The notes below the pieces were generated by a model. It did no database searches and had not been told where the DNA came from. It worked only from the letters and a program-made list of their open reading frames with translations. Shown piece by piece: positions 22,698-64,000 of a DNA stretch of 64,000 nt. How positions within the stretch are numbered: position 1 is the stretch's first letter; the number at the start of each line of letters is the position of its first letter. The stretch spans positions 1 through 64,000 of the forward strand of contig NZ_JASCIS010000046.1 of NCBI RefSeq assembly GCF_029968015.1, written 5' to 3'. Source of the stretch: Streptomyces luteolus (GTDB lineage: Bacteria > Actinomycetota > Actinomycetes > Streptomycetales > Streptomycetaceae). A program made the position numbers and the translations under genes.

Positions 22698-22770
22698 GCC
22701 CCAGCCCCCGCCGGGCTGCGCCCCCGTCGTGATTCGTCTGCCGCGCCGTCGTGGGTGCGCGCACAAGATT

Positions 22771-22847
22771 GCGCAGTTCCCCGCGCCCCTAGAAACCTGC
22801 GCAGTTCCCCGCGCCCCTGGAAAACATGCGCAGTTCCCCGCGCCCCT
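22771..22847. repeat. Three direct copies of a 20-bp GC-rich intergenic repeat
   Basis: GCGCAGTTCCCCGCGCCCCT occurs at 22771-22790, 22799-22818 and 22828-22847 (period 28-29) in the acdH-desE spacer. Single copies recur at 24929-24948 and, inverted within a hairpin, at 41644-41665. The rest of this 270-bp spacer holds the iron box and desE leader. Confidence 0.9.
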
Positions 22848-27977: not shown

Positions 27978-29419
27978 GCCTCGACACCCCACCCGAGGTC
28001 ACCCCTCACGAGGTAACCCGTCACGAGGTCACCCCACCCGAGGTCACCCCTCACGAGGTAACCGACCCCACCGCCGCCTCGCCCGAGCTGCTCGACCAGC
28101 TGCTCGCGCGCCAGGAGCGGCGGGAGTCCGCCGCCCGCACCTACGCCCGTACGCTTCCGGTCGCGCCGGTCCGCGCCCTGGGCGCGCAGGTCGTGGGCGC
28201 CGACGGGCGTACGTACCTCGACTGCCTGTCCGGCGCGGGCACGCTCGCGCTCGGGCACAACCACCCCGAGGTGGTGGCGGCGATCCGGGCCGACCTGGAC
28301 TCCGGCGTTCCGCTGCACGCGCTCGACATGATCACGCCGCAGAAGGACGCCTTCTCCGAGGAGCTGCTCACGCGGCTGCCCGGCTCGCTGCGCGGCGAGG
28401 CCCGGCTGCACTTCTGCGGTCCGGCGGGCACCGACGCCGTGGAGGCCGCGATCAAGCTGGCGCAGGCGGCGACCGGCCGGCGCGGGGTCGTGGCGTTCAG
28501 CGGCGCTTACCACGGCATGACGGTCGGCGCCTCGGCCGTGTCCGGACCCGCGCGGATGCGGTCCACGGTGGGCGCGGACGCGCTGCCGGTGACGCGGATC
28601 CCGTTCCCGTACGCGTACCGCTGCCCGTTCGGCGTCGGCGCACCGCAGTCCGGGGAGCTGTCGGCGCGGCTCCTGGAGAACTTCCTGACCGACCCGAGCA
28701 GCGGGGCGGGCGAGCCCGCCGCGGTGATCCTGGAGGTGGTCCAAGGCGAGGGCGGCGTGATCGAGGGCCCCGACTCGTGGCTGCGGGAGGTCCGCCGGAT
28801 CACCGAGGAGCGCGGCATCGTCCTGATCGTCGACGAGGTGCAGACCGGAGTGGGCCGCACCGGGCACTTCTGGGCCTGCGAGCGGGCCGGGGTCACCCCG
28901 GACGTGCTCGTCGCGTCGAAGGCGGTCGGCGGCGGTCTGCCGCTCGCGGTCCTCGCCTACCGGCCGGAGCTCGACCAGTGGCTGCCCGGCGACCACACCG
29001 GCACGTTCCGGGGCAACACCCTCGCCATGACGGCCGGCCGCGTCACCCTGCGTACGGTCGCCGAGGAGCAGCTGCCCGAGCGGGCCGCGAAGCTCGGGGA
29101 ACGGCTCCGGCTCTCCTTGCGTCAACTGGCCGATGACAACGCGCGGTTGGGTGACGTACGAGGGCGTGGGCTGATGAACGGCGTGGAGCTGGTCGACCCG
29201 GACGCCGCGCCGGACCGGATCGGCTCCCGGCCCGCGGACCCGGTCTTCGCCCGGCGTCTGCGCGCGGCCTGCCTGCGGCAGGGCCTGATGCTTGAGCTGG
29301 GCGGCCGCTCGGACAGCGTGCTGAGGCTGCTTCCGCCGCTGGTCGTGACGGACACCGAGCTCGACTCGGTCCTGGAGCGCATCGCCGCGGCGCTGCGGGA
29401 CGCGGAGCGTGCCGCGTGA
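27974..29419 (+). CDS. Diaminobutyrate-2-oxoglutarate aminotransferase
   Basis: 481 residues, class III PLP aminotransferase. It probably converts aspartate semialdehyde plus glutamate to 2,4-diaminobutyrate, like RhbA of rhizobactin biosynthesis. Motifs: [66 protein letters not shown] and the PLP Lys in [15 protein letters not shown]. The leader (residues 6-31) is five copies of a pentapeptide ending EVT, encoded by a 32-bp direct repeat (27987-28018, 28032-28063). ATG overlaps the desB stop. EctB-like ectoine synthesis is excluded by the absence of ectA and ectC. Confidence 0.88.
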
Positions 29420-62326: not shown

Positions 62327-62600
62327 GGAAACCCCTCCTCGTCCGCGAAGGCTGCGGTACAGCCCCTTCTCCGCATGGTTCAACGCGGTCCGCTGTCAAC
62401 GGCTACGGCACAACACCGCCTCAACGGATGGCAGTTCATGGCAGATCCGGCGTGAGATTTCCGGTTTGTAGCTAAACAGTGCGTACCGGTCCTGTCACAG
62501 CCGGTACTTTCGTGCCCCGTCGGAGCCGGACCGTTTCGCCCCCTACAGGGGGCGGTGACGGCACACGCTCCGGCACGAACCGCACGAGAGGGTTTGGCCA

Positions 62601-64000
62601 ATGGCGTCGTCACCGATGACATCGTCAGCGGGGTCTCCCCGGCCGAATCTCGCCTTCCGGCGGCTGCGCGGGCAGCTGTCGCCTGGCGAGTTCGCGGCCG
62701 CGGTGCGCCGGGCCGGCCTGGAGATCGGTGAGCGGGTCGCCTGCGACGCGCGCTACATCGGCCGGGTCGAGGCAGGCGAGATCCGCTGCCCCAACTACGC
62801 GTACGAGCGGGTGTTCCTGCACCTGTTCCCGGGCCGGACGCTGGCCGACCTGGGGTTCGCGCCGCGCGAGTCGGTACGGGGACGGGCCGCGCGGGCCAGG
62901 ACCGGCCCGAGCGCCGGACACGGTGCGGGACCGTTTCCGCACAACCATGCGGGACCGTTTCCGCACGACCAAGCGGGACCGTTTCCGCACAACCACGCGG
63001 GACCGTTTCCGCACGACCACGCGGGACCGTTTCCGCACGACCAGCTGAACGCAGAGCATCCGAGCACCGAGGAGAGCGACGTGCTGCGTCGCGCATTCAT
63101 GACCGGGAGCACGGCCACCGTGGCCGCCGCCTCCCTGGGGCTCACGGGCCCCCTCACGCCCGAGGCCGCCGCGGCACCCCGCCGGGTCGGCGAGACCGAG
63201 GCCGACGCGGTCGAGGAGGCCGTACGCCGCATCAGGCTGCTCGACGACCGGCACGGCGCCGACGGCCTGTACCGCAGGGCGTCACTGCCGCTGCGCAACG
63301 CGTTCGCCCTGCTCGACGCGGGCACCGCGCGCCGGGCCACATCGGACCGGCTGCACGCGGGAGCGGGTGAACTGGCCATCTCCGTCGGCTGGTTGGCGCA
63401 CGACTCGGGCCGTTTCGACGACGCGCGCTCGCACTACGCGGAGGCGCTCGCGACGGCCCGGATGGCGGGCGACGCGTCCCTGGAGGCGCACGCCTTCTGC
63501 AACATGTCGTTCCTCGCGCGGGACGCGGGCCGGCCGCGCGAGGCGGTACGGGCGGCGCAGGCGGCGCAGCGTTCGGCGCGGGACCGGGGTTCGATGCGGC
63601 TGCTCTCGCTGCTCGCGCTGCGCGAGGCGGGAGCGTACGCGCTGCTCGGTGACCGTTCCGGGTGCGAGCAGGCGCTCGCCCGCGCGCAGGCCCTGTTCAG
63701 CCGGGGCGGCACGGACGCGGACCCGGAGTGGATGAGCTTCTACAACGAGGCCGAGCTGGAGGGCCTGGAGGCGCAGTGCTGGTCGGCGCTCGGCCAGTGG
63801 GGGCGTGCCGCCCGGCACGCCCAGCGCGCGGCCCATGTCGCCACCACGCAGACCCCGCACTTCACGCGGAACATCGCGCTCTACACCGCCGAGGCGGCCG
63901 ACGACCTGGCGCGCGCGGGGCGCCCGGACGAGGCGGCGGCGGCGGGCGGCCGCGTCCTCGACCTTCTGGACGAGGTCCAGTCCTCCCGCATCCAGTCGAT
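62601..64000 (+). CDS. TPR-type transcriptional regulator, 3' end cut by window
   Basis: At least 466 residues, open to the right edge. An N-terminal helix-turn-helix-like region (LAFRRLRGQLSPGEFAAAVR, ARYIGRVEAGEIRCPNYAYE) is followed by five AGPFPH(N/D)(H/Q) octapeptides (62925-63044). Next comes a segment LRRAFMTGSTATVAAASLGL that looks like an internal Tat-type hydrophobic stretch, then helical TPR-like repeats (SGRFDDARSHYAEALATARM, AGRPREAVRAAQAAQRSARD). The layout recalls Streptomyces NsdA-like regulators of development and antibiotic production. The start is the ATG after a short leader; its ribosome site is weak. Confidence 0.85.
   Translation, partial: MASSPMTSSAGSPRPNLAFRRLRGQLSPGEFAAAVRRAGLEIGERVACDARYIGRVEAGEIRCPNYAYERVFLHLFPGRTLADLGFAPRESVRGRAARARTGPSAGHGAGPFPHNHAGPFPHDQAGPFPHNHAGPFPHDHAGPFPHDQLNAEHPSTEESDVLRRAFMTGSTATVAAASLGLTGPLTPEAAAAPRRVGETEADAVEEAVRRIRLLDDRHGADGLYRRASLPLRNAFALLDAGTARRATSDRLHAGAGELAISVGWLAHDSGRFDDARSHYAEALATARMAGDASLEAHAFCNMSFLARDAGRPREAVRAAQAAQRSARDRGSMRLLSLLALREAGAYALLGDRSGCEQALARAQALFSRGGTDADPEWMSFYNEAELEGLEAQCWSALGQWGRAARHAQRAAHVATTQTPHFTRNIALYTAEAADDLARAGRPDEAAAAGGRVLDLLDEVQSSRIQS
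62925..63044 (+). repeat. Five in-frame 24-bp tandem repeats
   Basis: Units of 24 bp start at 62925, 62949, 62973, 62997 and 63021, each encoding Ala-Gly-Pro-Phe-Pro-His plus two variable residues (N/D then H/Q). Variation is confined to three codon positions, indicating recent expansion. Confidence 0.95.

Follow-up and report, generated by a model that had tools for sequence, protein, structure and literature searches.

A codon-level constraint and a candidate internal translation start beside a fast-evolving linker in an NsdA-family regulator of Streptomyces luteolus

Introduction

Of the TPR regulators of Streptomyces, NsdA is described in PMC5567329 as affecting antibiotic production and sporulation, and NsdB in PMC6637917 as a regulator of antibiotic production; PMC4021200 and PMC2936110 name SCO4114 as an AdpA target. 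The titles and abstract openings of the open-licence papers retrieved mention no internal start in the NsdA family.

The window, by which we mean the whole stretch of 64,000 nucleotides of S. luteolus DNA analysed here, ends within a regulator gene of this kind, the frame of which runs beyond the window to a stop codon on the 64,194-bp contig. The protein, scanned against family models without its last 32 residues, scores 328.7 bits against a cut-off of 75 for the NsdA family TPR-like regulatory proteins (NF053720), and falls so far under the equivalog cut-offs for NsdA (NF050130, 89.9 bits versus 830) and NsdB (NF050135, 73.7 bits versus 700) that it is assigned to another paralogue group. 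NsdA-family matches number 9 to 13 in each of 11 genomes of the same genus. The name SCO4114 is not used for the regulator because the published AdpA site was found upstream of none of 80 named orthologues (within 550 bp, at most one mismatch), and a PDB sequence search with the regulator returned one chance-level match and nothing more.

Results

Organization of the gene

The gene and its principal parts, together with a conserved block upstream, are as follows.

62435..62477, + strand: conserved upstream block TTCATGGCAGAT ... TTTGTAGCTAAAC (orthologue and own-genome pattern search)
62601..64000, + strand: ORF of the NsdA-family HTH-TPR regulator (NF053720, E-value 8.3e-98, 328.7 bits)
62631..62879, + strand: N-terminal five-helix domain, HTH-like, residues 11-93 (AlphaFold; weak XRE/lambda-repressor-type matches)
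62883..63068, + strand: hypervariable linker, predicted disordered, residues 95-156 (orthologue comparison, AlphaFold)
63192..63998, + strand: TPR superhelix, residues 198-466 (AlphaFold, fold searches)

AlphaFold predicts the N-terminal helical domain (about residues 11-93) with confidence and, mostly so, a helical repeat domain from residue 198 on, and gives residues 94-193 a pLDDT below 50 but for a few scattered ones. The predicted repeat domain matches the TPR superhelices of LGN, KLC, Rap and NprR in fold searches. Residues 11-93 have no Pfam match; the best Foldseek hit is a weak one to an XRE regulator (E-value 0.91), and many rows of a VIA fold search are repressor-type HTHs, again weakly matched (best Z 6.9). 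The sequence-only reading had placed a repeat between a DNA-binding HTH and a Tat-like stretch with the TPR part behind it; that layout broadly stands, and we call DNA binding by the predicted N-terminal domain likely, and no firmer than that, because the fold matches are weak.

The upstream block lies about 125-165 bp 5′ of the regulator start codon. With up to one mismatch, TTCATGGCAGAT is present in 135 of 140 orthologues and TTTGTAGCTAAAC in 116 of 140, the spacing being 30 nt in 110 of the 113 that have both; the pair was found once in its own genome, and from its conservation it could possibly be an operator or promoter of the regulator gene. A scan of six neighbouring ORFs, some of whose frames may be wrong, gave one sub-threshold match to spermidine synthase (19.4 of 22.9 bits) and no other.

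The tandem array and the linker

The linker contains a tandem array that is the top-scoring of 42 Tandem Repeats Finder (TRF) rows for the window.

62925..63044, + strand: five 24-bp copies coding AGPFPHxx (sequence, TRF, genome 15-mer search)

TRF places the array at 62925-63043 and reports a period of 24, 5.0 copies, 94% matches and a score of 210, the top score among 20 dinucleotide shuffles of the window being 71, so that the five near-identical units described from the letters are genuine. In frame they read AGPFPHNH, AGPFPHDQ, AGPFPHNH, AGPFPHDH and AGPFPHDQ (residues 109-148), with histidine, as had been claimed, always at unit position 6 (5/5) and often at position 8 (3/5). Nucleotides 1-18 are the same in all five copies, even at synonymous sites. 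The alternating pattern AAC-GAC-AAC-GAC-GAC across the units suggests growth by a 48-bp step. A 15-mer of the unit, allowed no mismatch, has five occurrences in the whole 8.46-Mb assembly, all within this array, and on this ground a dispersed element was rejected. Two more tandem arrays lie in the window outside the regulator gene, at 27985-28087 (15/45-bp units, score 134) and at 22770-22847 (29-bp units, score 135).

Linker length varies between 14 and 141 aa among 155 distinct orthologues, with a median of 46; the S. luteolus linker has 62 aa, 10 of them histidine. The earlier suggestion that the DNA had recently expanded agrees with the nearest relatives retrieved, Streptomyces sp. B-S-A6 (94% identical) and S. 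boluensis (86%), whose linkers of 34 and 30 aa have one histidine each and no repeat, the age of the array being bounded by the relatives compared. Comparison of repeat number, which the sequence-only reading had proposed as a check, showed the other orthologues to be without the repeat, and GPFPH is absent from the other 154 linkers. Many of these are short or proline-rich, and those of many other Streptomyces carry HDP, DPH or DPY runs. An exact peptide repeat of at least three copies is present in 8 of the 155; independent tandem tripeptides include HDLx4, PHDx4, HEPx3 and PHHx3 (loci L134, L017, L010 and L101), and expansion in this linker has thus happened repeatedly.

A histidine-rich, metal-binding switch between the two domains, which would make the array itself the functional novelty, could be argued from the 10 histidines among 62 linker residues and from the general enrichment of the linkers in this residue (median 5.8% versus 2.4% outside), nine others being richer in it than this one, although in unrelated runs such as PHD, HEP and PHH. 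However, the unit is found in this genome alone among the 155 orthologues, and the nearest relatives have one histidine in the linker. A conserved metal-binding role is unsupported since GPFPH is in no other orthologous linker; we reject it as a conserved feature, metal binding in S. luteolus alone being conceivable, and consider the switch very improbable. From these comparisons, the array arose recently by tandem expansion within a linker that evolves fast and is predicted to be disordered; it is ordinary as biology and, apart from joining the two domains, has no conserved role.

A stretch of frozen codons 3′ of the linker

The strongest conservation signal lies 3′ of the array, where, by the codon comparisons given here, the DNA is frozen beyond its protein meaning. 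Codons 157-164 (63069-63092), directly 3′ of the linker, read GAGGAG-AGC-GAC-GTG-CTG-CGT-CGC, and nearly every orthologue regains the motif EESDVxRRxF at this point, with EESDV itself in 138 of 155 and close variants in 16. On a FastTree phylogeny of the 155 orthologues, built with the linker and the frozen stretch left out, the seven conserved columns of codons 157-164 have undergone 8 synonymous changes where the rate in same-residue columns predicts 136.3 (ratio 0.06); the best codon window elsewhere has 0.45 of the expected changes. The set of 155 omits a partial locus (L060), two low scorers (L065 and L066), exact duplicates and loci numbered 185 and above.

The constraint falls on individual codons. 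Serine 159 is AGC in 150 of 150 orthologues and valine 161 is GTG in 153 of 153, with no change on the tree, whereas the other valine columns have at least 13 changes and the mean over all 11 valine columns is 28.0. Arginine 163 is CGT in 147 of 154, CGT making up about 7% of the arginine codons in these genes (counted without L064-L067), and arginine 164 is CGC in 150 of 154. GAG at positions 157 and 158 is by itself unremarkable, since other glutamate columns also never change. The sole orthologue with a residue other than valine at position 161 has CTG, so that what is tolerated at this position appears to be a start codon, not a given residue. A pattern allowing all synonyms matched 237 of 295 genomes of the genus, with GTG in all among the matches listed; it excludes variants such as RRVF, which also carry GTG, and left 58 of the 295 unmatched. 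One relative of the same genus (L064) lacks the motif, being gapped at the element.

Several explanations of the frozen codons were rejected. An antisense gene would need Ala165 as GCA for its ATG, but the codon is GCG in 32 of 138, and the opposite-strand frame (62380-63096) crosses the hypervariable linker; a long overlapping frame does not agree with strong constraint over about ten codons only. Rfam gave one sub-threshold match (22.7 of 50 bits), on the opposite strand.

A candidate internal start

Two elements of the stretch are arranged as in a translation start.

63069..63074, + strand: Shine-Dalgarno-like GAGGAG (Glu157-Glu158; conservation, pairing)
63081..63083, + strand: proposed internal start codon GTG (Val161; 153/153, and 22/22 in the second form)

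GAGGAG lies 6 nt before the GTG. Against the anti-Shine-Dalgarno sequence, mean pairing is −8.87 at the site versus −4.40 for other in-frame NTG codons, 7.8% of which pair as strongly as the site does. Pairing survives residue changes: single examples of KESDV, EVSDV, ENDDV and EEDDV retain −8.3 to −12.2 kcal/mol, and both the charge-reversing change of glutamate to lysine (AAGGAG, 9 of 155) and that of glutamate to valine (GAGGTGAG, 2 of 155) keep the pairing to 16S rRNA. Against an internal start, the site has the strongest in-frame NTG Shine-Dalgarno in only 22 of 153 orthologues, although it ranks among the top three in 134. The GTG is strictly kept beyond the need of the protein, and the Shine-Dalgarno match is good, not unique.

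A second form of the element, in other genera, provides a further comparison. It is one codon longer, mostly GAGGAG-AAC-GAC-GAC-GTG, with GAGGAG 9 nt before the GTG; the inverted repeat described below is gone and the following arginine codons vary as elsewhere. In the 22 of 44 loci selected by the pattern xDDV/xDEV, with the third base of the valine codon left free, the valine codon is GTG throughout (22/22) and never changes, versus 1 to 7 changes in other valine columns. Most of the remaining loci of the 44 have the form seen in Streptomyces, inverted repeat included, and since several other genera share that form, the test from other genera is narrower.

Paralogues bear on the same point. 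In a control group (L245-L255) that also has the SDVxRR motif, six of the 11 valine codons are GTC and five GTG, and because these paralogues use both codons freely, the protein does not force GTG. Of 105 paralogous loci, one scored too low and 26 lack the RR motif, which leaves 78, a few of whose accepted RR pairs are probably false; in 33 of the 78, not all of them independent, a start codon (ATG, GTG or TTG) stands at −2 of RR, an excess of about eightfold given a background of 5% per codon. Against an internal start, 31 of the 78 lack a start codon anywhere from −4 to −2, and paralogue L239 has its valine as GTC. We note that an ATG stands 2-4 codons before RR or HR, between HTH and TPR, in L225, L228, L236-L237, L275, L278-L279, L285, L289-L290, L292-L293, L298, L302, L308-L309, L312, L318, L322-L323, L325, L327-L328 and L330-L332. 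In some paralogues the start codon before RR may, from its position, be an old fusion scar of a Tat-like start.

From the codon and pairing comparisons, we lean towards reading GAGGAG-AGCGAC-GTG as a conserved, working internal translation start.

Inverted repeat and possible hairpin

The constraint on AGC, CGT and CGC fits an inverted repeat, since a start codon does not need those codons.

63076..63092, + strand: inverted repeat GCGACG-TGCTG-CGTCGC, possible hairpin over the GTG (conservation, genome search, folding)

The frozen stretch could accordingly be an intragenic operator, GCGACG-N5-CGTCGC, recognized by some regulator or by the protein's own HTH, with GTG kept merely as part of it. 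The constrained bases of the Streptomyces form match both arms almost exactly, the middle codon being free, and several other genera share this form. The TG of the GTG, however, lies outside the symmetric arms, and the second form keeps GTG without the palindrome. The exact sequence GCGACGTGNNNCGTCGC occurs only once in the genome, and near-matches (up to two mismatches) number 318 versus 430 for a reversed control; a dispersed operator is therefore unlikely, there being no excess over the control, and we hold an operator at this place to be unlikely too.

In the RNA, about seven base pairs could form a hairpin spanning the GTG, as GCGACGU/GCGUCGC in the Streptomyces form; in the second form, most sequences could make one at the same place from other bases (GACGUGC/GCACGUU). 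That two different sets of bases allow a hairpin, at the border of the HTH and TPR parts, would suit an mRNA element acting on translating ribosomes, in which a Shine-Dalgarno-like pause and the hairpin aid folding, targeting or mRNA processing without any initiation. Folding energy is, however, only moderately under that of synonymous shuffles, with mean z −1.31 for the Streptomyces form and −0.99 for the second form versus −0.09 for controls; the lowest 5% of folding energy takes in 7% and 0% of the distinct sequences of the two forms, versus 6% of controls, and a 41-nt window at the site folds no more strongly than the rest of the gene. The second-form loci used here were picked by a pattern that contains GTG, and this set therefore serves for folding only. 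Pausing would, moreover, not require a GTG, and we regard such an element as quite improbable. A hairpin over a start codon normally hinders initiation, which counts against the internal start. For the internal start that we favour, the hairpin is, from its predicted pairing, a possible gate.

The Tat-like segment

Translation from the GTG would begin with the following segment.

63081..63176, + strand: Tat-signal-like segment VLRRAFMTGSTATVAAASLGLTGPLTPEAAAA (TIGR01409, 15.3-16.0 bits, cut-off 16.7; predicted disordered)

The Tat motif is S/T-R-R-x-F-L-K. The Tat-like stretch reported 3′ of the repeat is present as RRxFM followed by an alanine-rich stretch, with the Tat models under their cut-offs: TIGR01409 gives the protein 16.0 bits versus 16.7, and among 26 orthologues four have a match at E≤0.1; PF10518 (Pfam TAT_signal) gives the isolated segment 13.2 bits versus 22.7 and is absent across the 26-member orthologue list. 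AlphaFold predicts the segment to be disordered and not packed on the TPR domain. Since the Tat models fall under their cut-offs, export is only a lead, and the motif lends weak support to a short form exported via Tat. A search of the open-licence literature for a Tat signal combined with TPR or with XRE/helix-turn-helix in Streptomyces found none.

Discussion

If translation does initiate at GTG 63081, one frame would give a second protein that lacks the HTH, starts MLRRAFM... and has its TPRs preceded by a Tat-signal-like N terminus. The full-length form would bind DNA, and the short one could titrate a partner or ligand of the TPR domain or compete for it; alternatively, it could act at or beyond the membrane. 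The short hairpin may gate the start, being opened, for example, by ribosomes arriving from the HTH part. The most extended version of this scheme, in which a single regulator frame throughout the Streptomycetaceae would encode a cytosolic HTH-TPR protein and a hairpin-gated Tat-signal TPR protein at or outside the membrane, thereby linking an extracytoplasmic sensor to its DNA-binding sibling, is a doubtful proposition on what the genomes offer.

Should the conserved internal start yield a second isoform that lacks the HTH and is perhaps exported, any gene deletion or tagged construct would reflect both proteins together; replacing GTG by its synonym GTC would tell them apart. The signal at codon level illustrates, too, that a concealed start can be detected next to a noisy linker.

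Of the described systems, NsdA and NsdB are in the same NF053720 subfamily as the regulator and share its layout of an HTH-like domain and TPRs. The RRNPP-type HTH-TPR peptide receptors and Rap have a TPR superhelix that is alike in predicted fold (Z 16.5-16.6 for NprR, about 18 for Rap), although the TPR folds of unrelated proteins score alike. The segment resembles Tat signal peptides in its RRxFM, its hydrophobic Ala/Gly-rich stretch and its AxA-like end, but differs in scoring under the model cut-offs and in being internal to the protein of annotated length. SpaO and HrcQ, described in the literature as having an internal in-frame start and two isoforms, have in common with the proposed arrangement one frame with two starts and a short form without the N-terminal part; in those two cases the authors themselves report the internal start or the short form, whereas for the S. 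luteolus regulator we infer it from codon conservation.
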